Shown here: positions 37,046-45,058 of the stretch, in pieces
Numbering within the stretch: position 1 is the first letter of the stretch
How the letters are laid out: every line of letters begins with the position of its first letter
DNA from: a bacterium
GTDB taxonomy: Bacteria > Verrucomicrobiota > Kiritimatiellia > CAIKKV01 > CAITUY01
Length of the DNA stretch: 45,058 nucleotides
Direction of reading: 5' to 3'
NCBI GenBank assembly: GCA_037143175.1
Contig: JBAWZF010000023.1
Location: forward strand, 1 to 45,058
Made by a program: the position numbers and the translations under genes
The notes under the pieces: model-generated
Seen by the model: only the letters and a program-made list of their open reading frames with translations
The model's database searches: none
Told to the model about the DNA's origin: nothing

Positions 37046-38038
37046 ATGAAGCACCTGTTTCAAAATGCATTGGTAATAGCGATGGGCGTTGCGTTGGTTG
37101 GCTGTGAGTGGGGTGGAAGTGGGGATGAGGGTTCGTGGAATGATAGTTCGAGTATTGCTAATTTTAGCGGCTCATATCGAGGGTCAGGTGGGTACTTGGT
37201 TAGCGATTATTCGACAACCGCAAGTTCTACTCCTATAACATCATCTGGTGGTGTAACCTATAACACCTATACGGGAGAGGATGGGGGCAACACCGGCGCA
37301 AACAGAGTGTCACTTTCCGGAAAAACATCGCATGGCTCGGTTAAGCCTGGATCTTTCACGATCATTTTCGGAGGTGTTTCCGGTTCAGCCTTTGATGATG
37401 GATCTGGCGCTATGAAAGGTTCATATGTTTTAGGACCGACAAACTTTCCTGTTACTGGTGGTCATTTTGAATACGATACAGGTGTTTGGACGTTGCAGTT
37501 TGCCGCTCCAGGTCTGCCTGTTTCTCAGTCTATATCGATAAACTATAGTGCGGCGGGTGCCGCCACAAGCAGTGGGTCGAGTAGTAGCAGTGGTTCTGGT
37601 GCATCTGGTGGTGTCAGCATCTATGCTTTTAATGTTCAGCAGAGCGGCAACAAGATTTCGATTGTTGACAATAATGGCAGTGTGTATTCCGGTAGTATGG
37701 GTGATGTTAGAACGACGGGTGGGCTTTCCTCTAGTTCGACAGGTGGTACGCCTGCTAATGGAGATCAGGTCATTGCACCGTATTCGGCATCAGGAAAAAG
37801 TAAGTCCGGAATGTATGTCAATTTAGTTGGAAATTTTCAGGGGACAGTTGCAAGTGTCTCATCGGTTAGTTCAGTGAGTGGTGATTCCACAACGATTAAA
37901 ACGTCCTTTGCCTTGTCTGATCGCGTTATCCTTGGTACTTGGGTAGAAGATGGAGGTAAGACGGGGGATATTAAAGGAATAGCCGGTTCTTCTAGTACTA
38001 TAACGGTATCAAGTAGTACTTCGACCAACTCTCCGTAA
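37046..38038 (+). CDS. Ser/Gly-rich lipoprotein
   Basis: The product has 330 residues with a clear lipobox ALVGC (Cys at about residue 20) after a short hydrophobic signal. The rest is rich in Ser, Gly and Thr, with SSSSGSGASGG-type linkers and beta-strand-like stretches (VSIYAFNVQQSGNKISIVDN, KSGMYVNLVGNFQGTVASVS). GAGGG lies 7-11 bases before the ATG. It follows the giant gene by 74 bases and precedes a terminator, so it is probably the last gene of the extracellular operon. No family is recognised. Confidence 0.78.
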   Translation: MKHLFQNALVIAMGVALVGCEWGGSGDEGSWNDSSSIANFSGSYRGSGGYLVSDYSTTASSTPITSSGGVTYNTYTGEDGGNTGANRVSLSGKTSHGSVKPGSFTIIFGGVSGSAFDDGSGAMKGSYVLGPTNFPVTGGHFEYDTGVWTLQFAAPGLPVSQSISINYSAAGAATSSGSSSSSGSGASGGVSIYAFNVQQSGNKISIVDNNGSVYSGSMGDVRTTGGLSSSSTGGTPANGDQVIAPYSASGKSKSGMYVNLVGNFQGTVASVSSVSSVSGDSTTIKTSFALSDRVILGTWVEDGGKTGDIKGIAGSSSTITVSSSTSTNSP

Positions 38039-38138: not shown

Positions 38139-39077
38139 ATGATCAACAGTCCTAATCTTGAGAAAATGAAACTGTCGCTTCGCAACCGCACCGTTGTTGG
38201 AGCCTCCAATACGTCTGAAGAGGCTGCCAATGGTGATCCCAAAGAAACGGGTGTGTCGCGTCAGGATTATTTTCCTTCGCGCATGCTGGGGGAAAAAGTA
38301 AGGCGTAAAAACAACTTTGGTACGGTGGTCGGGCAACTGTTCCTGATATTGTTGCTAATATTGATTCCTTTGGGCGTTTTTTGCTATTTCGATTTATCTG
38401 AATATCGACAATGGGTTACGGCGACTGAACTGCTGCCGGACTTGCGAAAGGCTGCTGGCGACGATGTGAGGGCTGCCGCATTGGCGCAGTTGGCGATAAC
38501 AGTAGATCCTGGAAATGTGTCCTTGAAAAGTGGGCTTTTGGGGGTTTTGGCAATCCGGAAGGTGGGTCTGGGGCAAAGAGAAGTAGGGTTGCGTAATTGC
38601 AAGCAGGTTTGTCAGCAATTCCCAACGTCATGGTTTGCAAGCCAGTTTTCTGAGGCTTCATTTTACGGTTCGTGTCCTGCCTGTGCGGCAAAGGGGTCTG
38701 TCCCAGTACCGTGTTACCGCTGTAAAGGCACCGGGGTATGCTCTCGTTGTGGGGGTTCTGGGGAATGTTCAACTTTTATGGGGAATTCAAGGCCGAGTGG
38801 TTCTGGTGGCGACATTCGGAATACTGGTAAATTTCAAGGAATGGGTGAGAAATGTCTCGACTGTAAAGGTACGATGAGGTGTCGGTATTGTGGCGGAAAA
38901 AAAACACTTTCCGGGACTTGTGCCAAGTGTGAGGGGGAGGGATGCCAGTTCTCTAAGCAAAAGGTCATCGAACAATATCGGGCCGTGATCGATTATGTGC
39001 TGGGGTTGCACCCTTCCTGGGTGGCAACGGTGGTTCGACTCCAGGCGACTGTGAAGTCATGGATTCCGTTTTTTTGA
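38139..39077 (+). CDS. Membrane-anchored DnaJ-type zinc-finger protein, copy 1
   Basis: The product has 312 residues. A polar N-terminal segment of about 65 residues is followed by one membrane helix (LFLILLLILIPLGVFCYF, about 68-85). A helical region of about 90 residues follows, then a Cys-rich zone at about 178-275 with repeated CxxC and CxGxG motifs as in the DnaJ zinc finger (CPACAAKG, CYRCKGTGVCSRCGGSGECS, CLDCKGTMRCRYCGG, CAKCEGEG). There is no J domain. The zinc region probably binds unfolded protein or partners; on which side of the membrane it lies I cannot tell. Bases 38514-39071 recur at 41610-42167 and partly at 44711-44852. The start is uncertain; ATG at 38166 is an alternative. 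Confidence 0.75.
   Translation: MINSPNLEKMKLSLRNRTVVGASNTSEEAANGDPKETGVSRQDYFPSRMLGEKVRRKNNFGTVVGQLFLILLLILIPLGVFCYFDLSEYRQWVTATELLPDLRKAAGDDVRAAALAQLAITVDPGNVSLKSGLLGVLAIRKVGLGQREVGLRNCKQVCQQFPTSWFASQFSEASFYGSCPACAAKGSVPVPCYRCKGTGVCSRCGGSGECSTFMGNSRPSGSGGDIRNTGKFQGMGEKCLDCKGTMRCRYCGGKKTLSGTCAKCEGEGCQFSKQKVIEQYRAVIDYVLGLHPSWVATVVRLQATVKSWIPFF
38514..39071 (+). repeat. Direct repeat copy 1 (558 bp) of the zinc-finger gene
   Basis: This segment matches 41610-42167 with no net insertion or deletion (constant offset of 3096 bases) and scattered substitutions. A shortened third copy is at 44711-44852. All copies are in the same orientation. Confidence 0.92.
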
Positions 39078-39400
39078 GCAAAGGCCAATCAAGAGATTTG
39101 AAAAGTATTTGCACAAAAGTCGCAAAGCACGCGAAGGTGGCAGCCGACGTCCCGGCGGCTGCATTTAGCAGCAGGAAAGATAATCCTGATCTGAATCAAA
39201 ACTGTATGCATTTTCCTAAACTCATCCCCTGCATTCAAAATCTAATCATATAAATATAACTAGATACGTTATAGTTATATTAGTATGATCGAGAGCAGTG
39301 GGTGATGGATCTCACCTGGAAAAAGTGAGGGTGGTGGAGGGGGGGGCGAGGCGCATTATTATGCGTTATCTACATCAAGAGAATTGACGGGATATAGCAT
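39078..39400. other. Intergenic region with repeat unit and AT-rich palindrome
   Basis: No gene is seen. It holds a third copy of the GACGTCC-core hairpin unit (39135-39161, stem CAGCCG/CGGCTG). At 39254-39280 there is a 9-bp inverted repeat (ATATAACTA/TAGTTATAT), which may be an operator. A TTGACG (39384-39389) with a GATACT 17 bases later (39407-39412) would start transcription just before 39422. Confidence 0.5.
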
Positions 39401-39421
39401 ATGTGCGATACTGGACACGTA

Positions 39422-39757
39422 ATGAAGAAACTGTATTCGGCGACACGGAAGGTTCGCGAATTCATCGAGACGCAGCCACCGGAGATTCAAGTCGAATACG
39501 TTAAGTTGGTCGAGCGGATCGAATCTGACGGGCATTTGGTTGAACCGTTCGGCAAGAAACTCGACCGGAATTTGTTCGAAATGCGGTTGAGGCGAGGACG
39601 CCAAGTGCGGATTGTGTATTTCTATTACATGGGTAATCGCGTGATCGGGGTGCATGCCTTTGTTAAGAAGACGCAACAGACGCCACAGCGGGAACTGTCG
39701 CAGGCACTGCGAGTCAGGCGGATAATCGAGGATGGAGACTATGACGAAGATAAATAG
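39422..39757 (+). CDS. HigB/RelE-type toxin (Gp49-like)
   Basis: The product has 111 residues starting MKKLYSATRKV. FEMRLRRGRQVRIVYFYYMG and HAFVKKTQQTPQRELSQAL are the hallmark segments of the Gp49-like HigB toxins, ribosome-dependent mRNA interferases. An in-frame ATG at 39401 would add seven residues, but a candidate promoter with its -10 at 39407-39412 makes the later start more likely. The antitoxin gene overlaps its 3' end by 26 bases. It is a different lineage from the toxin at 15041. Confidence 0.85.
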   Translation: MKKLYSATRKVREFIETQPPEIQVEYVKLVERIESDGHLVEPFGKKLDRNLFEMRLRRGRQVRIVYFYYMGNRVIGVHAFVKKTQQTPQRELSQALRVRRIIEDGDYDEDK

Positions 39758-40061
39758 GGGATTGGAACGTATGCGTGCGGCTCACGAGGCGCAGGCGGTG
39801 GGCATTCGTGCGCATCCGGACTTCCAGAGGATCTCGGACGAGTTTGACGTGGAATATGAAGTGGCGCAACAGATGCTGACGATCCGCACGCAAGCAGGGC
39901 TTACCCAGGCCGATCTGGCCCGTCGGATGCATACGACGCAGAGCGTGGTATCTCGGATTGAGTCTGGAGTAAATGTATCCGTTGAAACGTTGGCTCGTTT
40001 TGCCGCCGCTTGTGGAAGGCGCCTACAGGTGCGGATGGTTCGTGAAAGTGGAATTTCATGA
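39732..40061 (+). CDS. XRE-family antitoxin
   Basis: The product has 109 residues. A helix-turn-helix (TIRTQAGLTQADLARRMHTT, then QSVVSRIESG, about residues 50-80) of the XRE type is typical of HigA antitoxins encoded after their toxin. The N-terminal 45 residues are charged and probably contact the toxin. A second ATG at 39741 is possible. Its stop overlaps aroD by 4 bases (ATGA), so a metabolic gene is joined to the toxin-antitoxin transcript. Confidence 0.85.
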   Translation: METMTKINRGLERMRAAHEAQAVGIRAHPDFQRISDEFDVEYEVAQQMLTIRTQAGLTQADLARRMHTTQSVVSRIESGVNVSVETLARFAAACGRRLQVRMVRESGIS

Positions 40062-40765
40062 TGGCTTACCACATTGGAAAACTGGTTCTTGGAACTCCTC
40101 CGCTGGTAGTGGGAACACTTTCTTCGAGAAGCTCCCTTCCTTCTGAACGTAGTGGTGCTGACTACCCCTGCAATGTGGTGGAAGTCAGGTTGGATCAGGT
40201 CGGCACGGATACTCCTGGGTGGCTGGGAGAGTGTCTGGCGATTGAGGAGGCCGGGGTCCCGGTCCTGCTTACTCTTCGGTTAGCTTCTGAAGGGGGGAAC
40301 TGGGTCAAGCCTGATGCTGAGCGGTTACCCTTTCTCTCCTCCGCACTGAACAACCTCTCCTGTATTGACGTAGAGTTCGCCAGTGAACTTTGTGTGCCAC
40401 TCTGTCGGCAGGCTGCGGAACTCGGGAAGTGCGTGGTCGTCTCTTCGCATAATTTTCAAGAAACCCCTGATTACGCCGTATTGAAGAGAATTCTGGATAA
40501 GATCCTGGCCATCCCGAATGCGATCCCCAAAATAACGACCATGATCAATACTGAGGTCGATGTGGAGACCTTGCAAAAGCTCCTTGAGATCACCACTGTG
40601 CGACCTATCTGTATTCTCGGCATGGGAAGCCTGGGCACTAAAACAAGAACTCTTTTTCCGACCTTAGGGGCCTGTCTTGCGTATGGTTATCTTGACGTGC
40701 CCAGCGCTCCAGGACAACTGTCTTCAAGTCAACTGATGCAAGCTTTAGCTAGAAAGAACCCATGA
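40058..40765 (+). CDS. aroD: Type I 3-dehydroquinate dehydratase
   Basis: This enzyme removes water from 3-dehydroquinate in the shikimate pathway through a Schiff base. The product has 235 residues, near the family size. Visible motifs: VVEVRLDQV (substrate-binding acid and arginine), VVVSSHNFQETP with the catalytic histidine, IPKITTMINTEVDV with the Schiff-base lysine, and GMGSLGTKTRTLFPTLGACL plus SAPGQLS near the end. All catalytic positions appear intact. It overlaps the antitoxin upstream and the next gene downstream by 4 bases each. The start could be the second ATG (40061). Confidence 0.9.
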   Translation: MMAYHIGKLVLGTPPLVVGTLSSRSSLPSERSGADYPCNVVEVRLDQVGTDTPGWLGECLAIEEAGVPVLLTLRLASEGGNWVKPDAERLPFLSSALNNLSCIDVEFASELCVPLCRQAAELGKCVVVSSHNFQETPDYAVLKRILDKILAIPNAIPKITTMINTEVDVETLQKLLEITTVRPICILGMGSLGTKTRTLFPTLGACLAYGYLDVPSAPGQLSSSQLMQALARKNP

Positions 40766-41172
40766 AAACTTGTTCCATTAAAGAATCTGAGGGGATTGAA
40801 CCGCAACAGTTGGCAAACCTTCTTGATTTCATTCCTGTTTTTGAGGATCCATCATTTTGCCCCGCCGGACAGATTCCTGTTGATGAGGATAATTGGCCGG
40901 ACGAAGATTTTATGAAGTTGGTCTCCCGTTTCATGGATGCCTGCTATAAGAATGGGTTCGTCGTCCGGTTCGATTGGGAGAACTGGGAGGCGGAGGCCAT
41001 GACCTATGTCCGGGATCCTGCCTTACTTAAAGAAGCGGATCTCGTTATTCTGCGTCGCCTGTTTACCTGGCATATCCGGCAGAATCGGTTCACCAAAAAT
41101 CATGTCGCCACCATGATCGCTTCAGGCCATATCTTGCTAGTGTTAAAGTCGTTAGGAGCTTTCAGGGTGTAG
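40762..41172 (+). CDS. DUF6508-like protein
   Basis: The product has 136 residues. The segment RRLFTWHIRQNRFTKNHVAT followed by MIASGHILLVLKSL resembles the core of DUF6508, small proteins common near mobile or accessory genes and of unknown function. An acidic N-terminal half precedes it. It overlaps aroD by 4 bases and is the last gene of the toxin-antitoxin-aroD run. Confidence 0.6.
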   Translation: MKTCSIKESEGIEPQQLANLLDFIPVFEDPSFCPAGQIPVDEDNWPDEDFMKLVSRFMDACYKNGFVVRFDWENWEAEAMTYVRDPALLKEADLVILRRLFTWHIRQNRFTKNHVATMIASGHILLVLKSLGAFRV

Positions 41173-41200
41173 CCTTACTGCAATGGGGAGGAGCGGAGCC

Positions 41201-41273
41201 CAATGTGGGAGGGGCACTCCGTGCCGCGACAGGCTCGAAAGAGTCGCCGCAGGGGACTGCGCCTCCCACATTG
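41201..41273. repeat. Imperfect inverted repeat (GTGGGAGG type)
   Basis: CAATGTGGGAGG (41201-41212) and its exact complement (41262-41273) are the outer arms; the inner sequence (GCACTCC... and ...GGGGACTGC) extends the match imperfectly to about 30 bases. A partial unit (TGTGGGAGGGGC) recurs at about 43091-43102. It lies just after the DUF6508 stop and may double as a transcript end, but no T-run follows. Confidence 0.75.
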
Positions 41274-41299
41274 AAGAGGGAGTCCCTTACTTGAGCGTG

Positions 41300-41596
41300 T
41301 CATTCCGTCAGTGTAATGGGGCTAAAGACGTGGTGACGTTTCTGGCGTTCTTTTTTTGATAAACCTTCTCCCTCAATTGCGAGTCGCTTTTCGATTCGTG
41401 CATTGTACATACCCAGTTGCAGTTCGTACGCGCCTGGAGGTATTTGGTCGGGTGGTTGAAACCGGAACGGGATATTCAGCGAGCCAAGGGCGAAAGTTTG
41501 CCAGAGGGGGAAGTTGAAGGTATGCACCGTGTGTCCCTGGGCATCTAACAGGTGGATAAAGAATACGATATCGTCCAGATTTCCGGGTCTGCTCAT
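41300..41596 (-). pseudogene. C-terminal fragment of a larger protein, cut by the zinc-finger repeat
   Basis: On the minus strand about 98 residues starting MSRPGNLDDIVFFIHLLDAQ and including IPPGAYELQLGMYNARIEKR look like a genuine beta-sandwich tail, similar in style to the C-terminal domain of membrane glycosyltransferase-type proteins. I am unsure of the family. The frame continues upstream only into the antisense of the zinc-finger repeat, whose homology starts at 41610. The true N-terminal part of the gene has therefore been lost by recombination at about 41597-41610. Confidence 0.55.
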
Positions 41597-42173
41597 GATA
41601 ATGGCTAGCAATGTTTCCTTGAAAAGCGGGCTTTTGGGGGTTTTGGCAATCCGTAAGGTGGGGCTGGGGCAACGAGAAGTAGGGTATCGTAATTGCAAGC
41701 AGGTTTGTCAGCAATTTCCTGCGTCATGGTTTGCAAGCCAGTTTTCTGAGGCTTCATTTTACGGTTCGTGTCCTGCCTGTGCGGCAAAGGGGTCTGTCCC
41801 AGTACCGTGTTACCGCTGTAAAGGCACCGGGGTATGCTCTCGTTGTGGGGGTTCTGGGGAATGTTCAACTTTTATGGGGAATTCAAGGCCGAGTGGTTCT
41901 GGTGGCGATATCCGGAATACGGGGGAATTTACAGGGATGGGAGAGAAGTGTCTTGATTGCAAAGGCACGCTGAAGTGTCGAAATTGCGACGGAAAGAAAA
42001 CATTTAAGGGGACTTGTTCAAGTTGCAACGGGGAAGGCCACCAGTTCTCCCAGCAAAAAGTCACTGAACAATATCGTGCCGTGATTGATTATGTGTTGGG
42101 ACTGCACCCTTCCTGGGTGGCCACGGTGGTTCGACTCCAGGCGACTGTGAAGTCATGGATCCCGTTTTTATAG
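41595..42173 (+). pseudogene. Truncated zinc-finger gene, copy 2
   Basis: Up to 192 residues from MIMASNVSLKSGLLGVLAIR repeat the second half of the protein at 38139-39077, with all the CxxC motifs kept. The membrane helix and about 125 N-terminal residues are missing. Cysteine positions are conserved while other residues differ (for example CRNCDGKKTFKGTCSSCNGE), so it diverged under some constraint or came from a paralogue. There is no good ribosome site; if expressed it would be a soluble protein. Confidence 0.7.
41610..42167 (+). repeat. Direct repeat copy 2 (558 bp) of the zinc-finger gene
   Basis: Homologous to 38514-39071. Homology on the left begins abruptly beside the protein fragment on the minus strand. 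On the right it continues past the stop (to about 42191) only with copy 3, not with copy 1. Confidence 0.9.
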
Positions 42174-42236
42174 TCGAGACTTCTGGAATGGTGAATGATT
42201 ATACTTTGAAGACATTTGGAGACGAAAAGAATTTTT

Positions 42237-42266
42237 AGACAGAATTTACAGAATAAGACAGAATGG
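42237..42266. repeat. Short array of ACAGAAT units
   Basis: ACAGAAT occurs three times at 9-10 base spacing (AGACAGAAT, TTACAGAAT, AAGACAGAAT) in the gap before hicB. It is similar in style to the other short-unit arrays but shorter and less regular. Confidence 0.5.
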
Positions 42267-42319
42267 TGAAATTGGTGTGTGTGGGGTATTGAAAACCGCC
42301 TTCTGAATTTCTGCTTGAA

Positions 42320-42348
42320 TTGACACCCCTGCGAGAAATATGCAAAAT
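42320..42348 (+). promoter_or_regulatory. Candidate hicBA promoter
   Basis: TTGACA (42320-42325) is followed after exactly 17 bases by CAAAAT (42343-42348), giving a start near 42355, about 20 bases before the hicB ATG. AAGG at 42361-42364 would be the ribosome site. Confidence 0.5.
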
Positions 42349-42374
42349 TATTAGAGCTATAAGGAAAAGACCAA

Positions 42375-42779
42375 ATGACCACAATTCACAATGTCAGTGT
42401 GACAAGCAGGGTGTTGCTTTATCAGGAACGGGATGGGACTTATGTGGCCCATGCGCTTGAAACCGACCTGATCGGGGAGGGGAATAGCCCGAATAAGGCT
42501 ATGGCGGATCTTCGGAATGCCATGGAAGCCCAGATTACCTTCGCGATCCAGATGGGTAACACGGGAATGATTCAGCGCGAAGCTCCGGCGGACATTATTA
42601 CCCGCTGGGAGAAAGCCAATAAGCAGAGTATCAAGGATTTGACCAAGGAAGGCCATACGTTGCGCGTCAAGGCGGTCGCAAAAGTCATTGAGATTACGCC
42701 CAAGGAAGTCGCTTTGTTGCGCTCTAAGGCTAGGCGGAATGCCTTTTCCGCGTCTTCCCGGGCGGTGGCCTGTGCCTAA
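42375..42779 (+). CDS. hicB: HicB-type antitoxin
   Basis: The product has 134 residues. The N-terminal part (VLLYQERDGTYVAHALETDL, then GEGNSPNKAMADLRNAMEAQ) is the HicB fold: a degraded RNase H-like domain with the YVAHALETDLIGEG pattern. The C-terminal 50 residues are basic and lack a clear HTH. It is encoded before hicA, the reverse of the commonest order but known. The end overlaps hicA by 8 bases. It neutralises HicA and may repress the operon. Confidence 0.82.
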   Translation: MTTIHNVSVTSRVLLYQERDGTYVAHALETDLIGEGNSPNKAMADLRNAMEAQITFAIQMGNTGMIQREAPADIITRWEKANKQSIKDLTKEGHTLRVKAVAKVIEITPKEVALLRSKARRNAFSASSRAVACA

Positions 42780-43005
42780 GCCGCTCAAGTTTCACGAATT
42801 GGTTCGCAGATTGAAGGATCATAATCGGGAATTTGAGATACATGAGCGGCGAGGGAAGGGGAGCCACTGTATGCTCTACCACAAAAGCCTTGCCGGTCGT
42901 CCCGCTTCCGTACCCGTTCCCCGCCATGGTGGGCGCGATATATCGCCCCGGATCCTCTCTCAGATAATTCGGGCCTTTAATTTGCCGCATGATCTGCTTG
43001 GGTGA
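42772..43005 (+). CDS. hicA: HicA-type mRNA interferase toxin
   Basis: The product has 77 residues starting from GTG at 42772 (MPKPLKFHELVRRLKDHN). The catalytic histidine lies in KGSHCMLYH, with the GSH pattern that defines HicA, and the ending SPRILSQIIRAFNLPHDLLG is the usual C-terminal helix. The dsRBD-like fold cuts mRNA. The frame is open upstream to 42688 but inside hicB. All expected residues are present, so it should be active. Confidence 0.85.
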   Translation: MPKPLKFHELVRRLKDHNREFEIHERRGKGSHCMLYHKSLAGRPASVPVPRHGGRDISPRILSQIIRAFNLPHDLLG

Positions 43006-43117
43006 TTTGCTTTTTCATGAGGATGGTTCGCGTAAGTAGGGCCTGAGTGTTCAATCCGACCCTTTTTTGTTTATCAAGGGTGAGGGTTCTTGTGGGAGGG
43101 GCGCTATATTGAATTAT

Positions 43118-43146
43118 TTGACACAATCGCAGTTAATATATAATAT
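43118..43146 (+). promoter_or_regulatory. Candidate promoter of the Fic gene
   Basis: TTGACA (43118-43123) is followed by overlapping -10 candidates TATAAT (43139-43144, 15-base spacing) and TAATAT (43141-43146, 17-base spacing). The start would fall near 43153, about 25 bases before the Fic ATG. Confidence 0.55.
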
Positions 43147-43178
43147 TTTTGACAATTACGGCGCGGCATACGTGTATT

Positions 43179-44669
43179 ATGCGAAATATTCTACCAGAAA
43201 TAGTTTTCTCAACGTCTGACAGCACTCTGTCACAGCGTATTAGTCGGTGGGTAAAATCTGGTCGCCTCCGCAAGATTGCGCCAAAACTCTACACATCGAA
43301 CTTCACGGACAGCGACTATCAGATTGTGAAGCGGAATCTTTATCCGATTCTTGGGCATCTGTTCTCGGGTGCGCTCCTGAGTCATCGTTCAGCACTCGAA
43401 GGGCGCCCTACGGATTCTGGGGATGTATTTCTGACCTATACGTACACCCGGCATGTCGCACTACCTGGTATCCGTGTTCACTTAATGAAAGGGCCTGGAC
43501 CGGGGAGTACCGATTTACCCTTTATGAATGGTTTGTTCATTTCCTCACGGCCGCGGTCGTTTTTGGAAAATCTCCAGATCGCACGTGGGAGGTCTGGTCT
43601 TGCTAAAATCCTGTCCAAAGTGGAACTCGAAGAGAGATTGGATCGCATTTGTCTGGCGCAAGGGACAGCCGCCTTGAATACGCTGCGTGATTCGGCGCGT
43701 GAACTGGCAGGGCCGTTGCACATGGAAGAACCTTTCCGGAAACTGAATGCCCTGATTGCGGCGATCCTGCGAACACGGCCGGCCAACGTGCTCTCTTCGC
43801 CTGCGGCACGGGCAAGATCCATGGGGATGCCGTACGATTCTTTTCGGTTGGATCTCTTCAATACGTTGTTCACAGCGCTCTCCCAGGCAGAACTGCCAGT
43901 CCGCAATGAAGTCCGCACGACCGAAAGAGAACGCCAGCTTCTGGCCTTTTTCGAGGCCTATTTCTCGAACTACATTGAAGGAACCGAATTCAAGGTTTCC
44001 GAAGCCTATGACATTGTCTTTCACAATAAGGTGCCTCGAAACCGTCCCGCAGATGCACATGATGTCATGGGCACATTTCGTGTGGCCGCCAGTATTGGGC
44101 AGAGTCGGTCCGTTTCCGAAACGTTTGACGATTTTTGCCGGATTTTGAAATCTCGGCATCACGATATCATGGAAGGCCGTCCTGACAGGGCACCGGGCGA
44201 GTTCAAGGAGGATGGAAATCGTGCCGGAGAGACTGTGTTCGTGGATCCCGGTCTAGTCCAGGGCACGCTGTTAAAGGGGTTTGAAATGGCCTCCGCGATC
44301 ACGCCGGGCTTGCCGCGTGCCATCTTCATGATGTTTCTCATCGCGGAGGTTCACCCATTTGTTGACGGAAATGGACGTGTTGCCCGGTTGATGATGAACG
44401 CGGAACTGGTGCATAGGGGGCTCAGCCGAATCGTGATGCCAACCGTTTACCGCGACGATTACCTGCTGGCACTTCGTGCCCTCTCCCGCTCCAGCAACCC
44501 CGTACCCCTGGTTAGAGCTATGGATTACGTTCAGGATTTCTCGTCGCGTTTGCCAATGTCGTCTTATGATGAGGCGATCAACGCTTTGACTAACTGTAAC
44601 GCATTCAAAGACCCCGATGAGGCTCGTCTGATTATGTATTCCCCTATATCTTCCGCGCCTTCAATTTAG
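43179..44669 (+). CDS. Fic-domain protein with N-terminal winged-helix-like region
   Basis: The product has 496 residues from ATG 43179; a TTG at 43149 would add ten but lies over the promoter. The Fic core HPFVDGNGRVARLMMN (His at about 392) matches HPFxDGNGRxxR, so it should transfer AMP or a similar group onto a target. SNYIEG at about 263-268 fits the inhibitory helix (S/T)xxxE(G/N), placed before the Fic core as in class II Fic proteins, so it holds itself in check. The N-terminal 190 residues (LSQRISRWVKSGRLRKIAPK, LSHRSALEGRPT) resemble the winged-helix/AbiEi-like antitoxin region found in some toxin-antitoxin regulators. It may be a stand-alone toxin or an anti-phage module. The target is unknown. 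Confidence 0.85.
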   Translation: MRNILPEIVFSTSDSTLSQRISRWVKSGRLRKIAPKLYTSNFTDSDYQIVKRNLYPILGHLFSGALLSHRSALEGRPTDSGDVFLTYTYTRHVALPGIRVHLMKGPGPGSTDLPFMNGLFISSRPRSFLENLQIARGRSGLAKILSKVELEERLDRICLAQGTAALNTLRDSARELAGPLHMEEPFRKLNALIAAILRTRPANVLSSPAARARSMGMPYDSFRLDLFNTLFTALSQAELPVRNEVRTTERERQLLAFFEAYFSNYIEGTEFKVSEAYDIVFHNKVPRNRPADAHDVMGTFRVAASIGQSRSVSETFDDFCRILKSRHHDIMEGRPDRAPGEFKEDGNRAGETVFVDPGLVQGTLLKGFEMASAITPGLPRAIFMMFLIAEVHPFVDGNGRVARLMMNAELVHRGLSRIVMPTVYRDDYLLALRALSRSSNPVPLVRAMDYVQDFSSRLPMSSYDEAINALTNCNAFKDPDEARLIMYSPISSAPSI

Positions 44670-44710
44670 TAATTTCTCCAAAATGGCTGATGAATCAAAT
44701 CTTGATAAAA

Positions 44711-44852
44711 TGCGGCAAAGGGGTCTGTCCCAGTACCGTGTTACCGCTGTAAAAGCACCGGGGTATGCTCTCGTTGTGGGGGTTCTGGGGTCCGGCTTCA
44801 GACGTCCGTGAAATCATGGATCCCATTTTTATAGTCGAGACTTCTGGAATGG
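44711..44852 (+). pseudogene. Third, internally deleted copy of the zinc-finger gene
   Basis: Bases 44711-44790 match 41780-41859 with one visible change, and 44808-44852 match 42147-42191, including the stop region and following bases that copy 1 lacks. The 287 bases between are lost and replaced by 17 unrelated bases. It is closer to copy 2 than to copy 1. Non-functional. Confidence 0.88.
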
Positions 44853-44952: not shown

Positions 44953-45058
44953 TCAACTCTTCGTCGTGCAACCAACCGGATTGACTCGAATGCGCTTAGA
45001 AATGCAGGGCAGACGCATCTAATTTTCCTTTAATCTGGCGTTTCTGGCTCAAATACTC

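Follow-up and report, generated by a model that had tools for sequence, protein, structure and literature searches.

Probable remodelling of a toxin-antitoxin hotspot by inversion, tandem duplication, deletion and gene conversion

Three copies of a zinc-finger (ZnF) gene enclose toxin-antitoxin (TA) genes near the end of the window, i.e., the whole stretch of 45,058 nucleotides analyzed here, which is contig C23 of a 107-contig draft genome (G000). We propose, with a probability of roughly 0.7, that the locus is a TA hotspot flanked by a lipoprotein gene on one side and a YkuD-aspS cluster on the other, and that an inversion and a tandem duplication, followed by deletions and gene conversion, have remodelled it. 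The ZnF copies would then be by-products of the duplication, not a frame that captures cassettes. Direct results are the pairing of contig ends through a MITE, the rearranged gene order, the comparison of TA genes between species and the conversion tract. The processes are ordinary and the locus is unusually readable; an apparent repeat-framed "toxin cassette array" can result from them. Since such an array can form in this ordinary way, similar layouts should not be called capture systems without comparative data.

Zinc-finger copies and the genes between them

The ZnF copies are direct repeats, all on the + strand, with similarity far above chance. Repeat alignments bore out the initial annotation, which had described a full, a 5'-truncated and an internally deleted copy in the same orientation.

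38139-39077, + strand: ZnF copy 1, complete; 312-aa ORF with an N-terminal transmembrane (TM) segment and a CxxC/CxxCxGxG cysteine-rich domain
41595-42173 (start approximate), + strand: ZnF copy 2, 5'-truncated; open frame, 192 aa from the ATG at 41595
44711-44852, + strand: ZnF copy 3, non-coding remnant with a 268-bp internal deletion; 3' flank common to copy 2

Copies 1 and 2 are 90% identical over 560 bp, with 58 mismatches (38514-39073 versus 41610-42169). Copy 2 aligns with copy 1 from codon 126 on; the ~125 codons before that, which encode the N-terminus and the TM segment, are missing, and copy 2 remains an open frame. Its cysteines were also said to have been kept despite divergence, and every CxxC motif of copy 1 is indeed present, while one additional lone Cys (EGEGC) has become His. 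These intact pairs and a Ka/Ks of 0.16 relative to copy 1 argue that copy 2 has been held under constraint; its product is possibly a soluble 192-aa protein devoid of a membrane anchor. Copy 3 begins mid-gene. Its front piece (44711-44790, 80 bp) is 99% identical to copies 1 and 2, and its tail (44789-44852, 64 bp) is 88% identical to that of copy 2, including 21 identical bp past the end of the reading frame. As the loss between the two pieces is not a multiple of 3, copy 3 is a remnant. The ZnF protein matched no family in Pfam, NCBIfam or PADLOC, and the PDB yielded nothing beyond a weak match to RtpA (E=0.5). A short GC-rich, palindrome-like sequence of REP type lies at 39135-39161 and occurs in ~10 other places of the genome.

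The following genes lie between the copies, in addition to the aroD-DUF6508 pair described below.

39373-40061, + strand: higBA-type module; HigB 39401-39757 (PF05973), HigA 39732-40061 (HTH_3)
42304-43018, + strand: hicBA block; HicB-position ORF 42375-42779, HicA 42772-43005; 95% identical to G004 at the nucleotide level
43018-43107, + strand: second higA 3'-end remnant (43018-43040) and terminator-like piece, common to G004
43179-44669, + strand: fic gene with an HPFVDGNGR motif

The gene content given by the initial annotation was confirmed, as matches above the Pfam cut-offs were obtained for Gp49/HigB toxin, HTH_3 antitoxin, type I DHQase, DUF6508, HicA and Fic. Three features are additional to that annotation: the minus-strand gene fragment next to copy 2 (41300-41591), the second higA 3'-end remnant and the MITE at the contig end. 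HicB is assigned by position and size only, with no Pfam family above cut-off, and a search for hicB in GTDB contigs gave no match.

A variable toxin-antitoxin site in related genomes

The left side of the locus is anchored by a conserved gene.

37046-38038, + strand: 330-aa Ser/Gly-rich lipoprotein gene, syntenic in G004, G006, G008 and G013

The lipoprotein shows 34-56% aa identity to its counterparts in those four genomes (tblastn). In G004, which belongs to the same genus, and in G006 and G008, of the same family, the gene is followed by what we take to be a YkuD-type gene and then by aspS. Comparing the locus across relatives, the check proposed at the outset, revealed that its content differs. 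G006 and G008 have no such island at the corresponding position, and G004 carries a different set between the lipoprotein gene and YkuD, namely higA (82% aa identity), hicBA (95% nucleotide identity) and a vapBC-like pair, together with 49 bp left over from the start of fic. ZnF, aroD and DUF6508 were not found at the G004 TA site, and a promoter piece of the higBA-type module is shared with G004 along with higA. TA content thus varies between flanks that are conserved in G004, G006 and G008, the right flank having moved to contig C14 in the present genome.

Between the window and G004, synonymous divergence (Ks) of neighbouring or housekeeping genes ranges over 1.3-1.9 (aspS, 1.45; cysS, 1.9; lipoprotein gene, 1.8), versus 0.63 for higA and 0.12-0.17 for hicBA. 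These low values place the gain or exchange of hicBA, and less so of higA, after the split of the two species, with recent exchange of hicBA into this site in both. The two would have arrived or been exchanged separately, with no part played by the ZnF copies. As judged from sequence comparison, the site is a chromosomal acquisition hotspot for TA genes that is independent of the ZnF copies. Of the earlier proposal of an acquisition site, the variable hotspot stands, with hicBA far younger than the species split; the role of the ZnF copies as its frame does not.

Read cyclically, the block order of the window (hicBA-higA-fic) is that of G004 (higA-fic-hicBA). The 43018-43107 segment matches two separate places of the G004 locus L079 at 95% over 42 and 58 bp. 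When 43018-43107 and 43185-43233 are set against L079 3261-3967, the higA tail, the terminator piece and the fic start appear reordered, possibly by cyclic permutation.

Chromosomal TA hotspots and genomic islands in general likewise have variable TA content between the same flanks and TA genes much younger than those flanks. The present site differs from them in that no integrase, tRNA or attachment site was found, including by a search for tRNA/Rfam attachment features, and in that block order is permuted between two species.

A duplicated segment, an inversion and the probable contig beyond the window

Between copies 1 and 2, aroD and DUF6508 form part of a 1.5-kb paralogue of a segment of contig C42 from the same genome.

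40058-41591, + strand: left arm of the duplicated segment, 90-93% identical to C42:22536-24214
40058-40765, + strand: aroD' (type I 3-dehydroquinate dehydratase), start codon at 40058
40762-41172, + strand: DUF6508', within the left arm
41201-41273: REP-like palindrome, within the left arm
41300-41591, - strand: 3' fragment of a gene for a 932-aa putative membrane protein, complete in C42
41580-41609, no strand: duplication join point by three-way alignment, where the gene fragment runs directly into truncated ZnF copy 2

In C42, aroD and DUF6508 face the full 932-aa gene, of which the window keeps just the last ~97 codons, directly adjoining truncated ZnF copy 2. The paralogue pairs have equal Ks values (aroD, 0.345; DUF6508, 0.355; P=0.89). 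Neither copy is simply the parent of the other, since in C42 aroD and DUF6508 are separated by a palindromic insert that is missing in the window. The type I 3-dehydroquinate dehydratase gene, present here in two copies next to DUF6508, was not found in the 17 relatives searched. aroD' overlaps the higA stop codon by 4 bp, which makes co-transcription with the TA pair possible.

The position of C42 can be deduced from a repeat at the end of the window.

45004-45058, + strand: left end of a ~240-bp MITE with TIR CAGGGCAGACGC..., at the C23 contig end

C23 stops 55 bp into this repeat. A complete element is present at G000 C22:28691-28933; it is palindromic, ~240 bp long, with TIR CAGGGCAGACGCATC and a 10-bp target site duplication (TSD), CTATTTTAGG being found on both sides. 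Six contig ends lie inside the MITE, with left halves on C23, C55 and C18 and right halves on C42, C36 and C41. The C23 and C42 ends carry opposite halves and the same 10-bp TSD, CTTAGAAATG, and the C55-C41 halves also have matching TSDs (GCTTTTCTAT); those of the third pair, C18-C36, do not match. The chance of a 10-bp TSD match among nine pairs is about 9e-6. TSD matching makes C23-C42 and C55-C41 joinable, and based on the shared TSD and the contig's orientation, C42 can be placed next to C23 just past the window's end. The joined order would read lipoprotein-ZnF1-higBA-aroD'-DUF6508'-gene fragment in unit 1 and, after the join, ZnF2-hicBA-fic-ZnF3-MITE-aroD-DUF6508-full 932-aa gene in unit 2.

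Gene order in the relatives independently supports this placement. In the present genome, YkuD-aspS is located on C14 beside the HIT-150aa-M16 genes, which in G004 come after DUF6508 on a contig other than that of the TA site. A single inversion with breakpoints island|YkuD and DUF6508/aroD|HIT would account for the gene order. If HIT was joined to YkuD in this manner, the lipoprotein/TA side is predicted to be joined to the aroD-DUF6508-932-aa gene side with the same orientation as the MITE halves imply. The orientation of C42 agrees with this predicted reciprocal; the other junction, HIT|YkuD, is inside C14. That junction (L086) is an inversion breakpoint relative to G004.

We propose the following history. 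Comparison with relatives shows the first step, an inversion that joined HIT to YkuD on C14 in the window's lineage. As suggested by the join point, a tandem duplication would then have run from the interior of ZnF to the interior of the 932-aa gene. One such event would explain both truncations, that of the ZnF2 5' end and that of the 932-aa gene. If C42 follows C23, there are two collinear direct units, each with ZnF...aroD-DUF6508-gene, and the end of one is fused to the start of the next at 41580-41609. As the join has no clear long homology, illegitimate recombination is its likeliest mode. The units differ in content, so that later deletions must be assumed; small indels probably trimmed them differently, leaving higBA in unit 1 and hicBA, the higA tail, fic and the ZnF3 stump in unit 2, and the MITE would have inserted later into unit 2. 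Copy 3 needs an additional event in this account.

Tandem duplications in bacteria by illegitimate recombination (e.g., PMC11111574 and works cited there) similarly show direct-repeat units, a novel join of two truncated genes and little or no homology at the join. Unlike those, the present locus, as read from its sequence, is an old (Ks about 0.35), eroded case that contains toxin genes and signs of gene conversion. A literature search found no TA array for which both tandem duplication and gene conversion are described.

Probable exchange between copies and other possible histories

The last step of the proposed history would be gene conversion between copies 1 and 2.

38626-38812 and 41722-41908, + strand: 187-bp tract identical between copies 1 and 2, possibly lengthened artificially because assembler bulge removal can hide SNPs; probable gene conversion

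Contig overlaps of 55 bp point to an assembler with k=55. Given the average divergence of the two copies, the expected probability of such an identity is about 1e-9. The ~190 bp that follow are strongly diverged, and Ks is 0.12 in the 5' half of ZnF versus 0.75 in the 3' half (P = 4e-6). The 80-bp piece of copy 3 falls within the tract. Part of ZnF1 and ZnF2 has thus probably been homogenized by gene conversion.

The overall ZnF Ks of 0.338 is level with those of aroD and DUF6508, its two halves deviating from it. Compared with the aroD pair, the 3' halves have diverged further (P=0.006) and appear older, so that an older ZnF paralogue may be involved. This age difference would also fit an ectopic, non-tandem insertion of an aroD-DUF6508-fragment copy from C42 between two older ZnF paralogues. 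We consider this unlikely, since the insert would have to stop exactly at the copy 2 truncation, and the adjacency and orientation of C42 suit a tandem copy better.

Less probable still is the initial proposal, in which whole toxin blocks are gained or lost as cassettes when ZnF copies undergo homologous recombination with each other. The copies are direct, 187 identical bp are enough for RecA, conversion is visible and content varies between species. The recombination invoked is seen as exchange within the tract, but no genome examined has a swapped cassette or an alternative block between two copies. Nor were conserved copies with variable content between them found, as ZnF is missing in five genus-mates, including at the syntenic G004 site, where higA and hicBA are nevertheless present. 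No ZnF relative came up when the plasmids, phages, viral contigs and GTDB contigs covered here were searched by DNA and protein; within the class, some scattered genomes have weak homologues (about 30%). Block 1 had been regarded as an importable cassette, but its aroD-DUF6508 pair belongs to a local duplication, the second arm of which would be situated just beyond the window.

It seems somewhat more doubtful again that TA modules were exchanged between species through a circular or amplified intermediate, a reading suggested by the shared cyclic block order of the window and G004. In that case, looping out of the 3.1 kb that separate the two 187-bp tracts could yield a circle with higBA on it. 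Despite the MITE and REP-like palindromes nearby, a transposable unit consisting of ZnF and toxin genes is very improbable, as the 3.3-Mb genome contains no further ZnF copies that would make them interspersed repeats, the Pfam-annotated ORFs of the island include no transposase, and neither terminal repeats nor TSDs were seen around the copies.

Integron gene-cassette arrays also have genes between repeated elements. The repeats here are instead pieces of one protein-coding gene and are missing at the related TA site of G004; no attC-like site accompanies the cassettes, the repeat search having returned only ZnF pieces.

The fic gene has homologues in G003 and G072 (76% nucleotide identity) in unrelated contexts; in G003 and in a distant member of the class, it forms a single module. 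The Fic protein has a weakly AbiEi-like N-terminal region, possibly a fused regulator.
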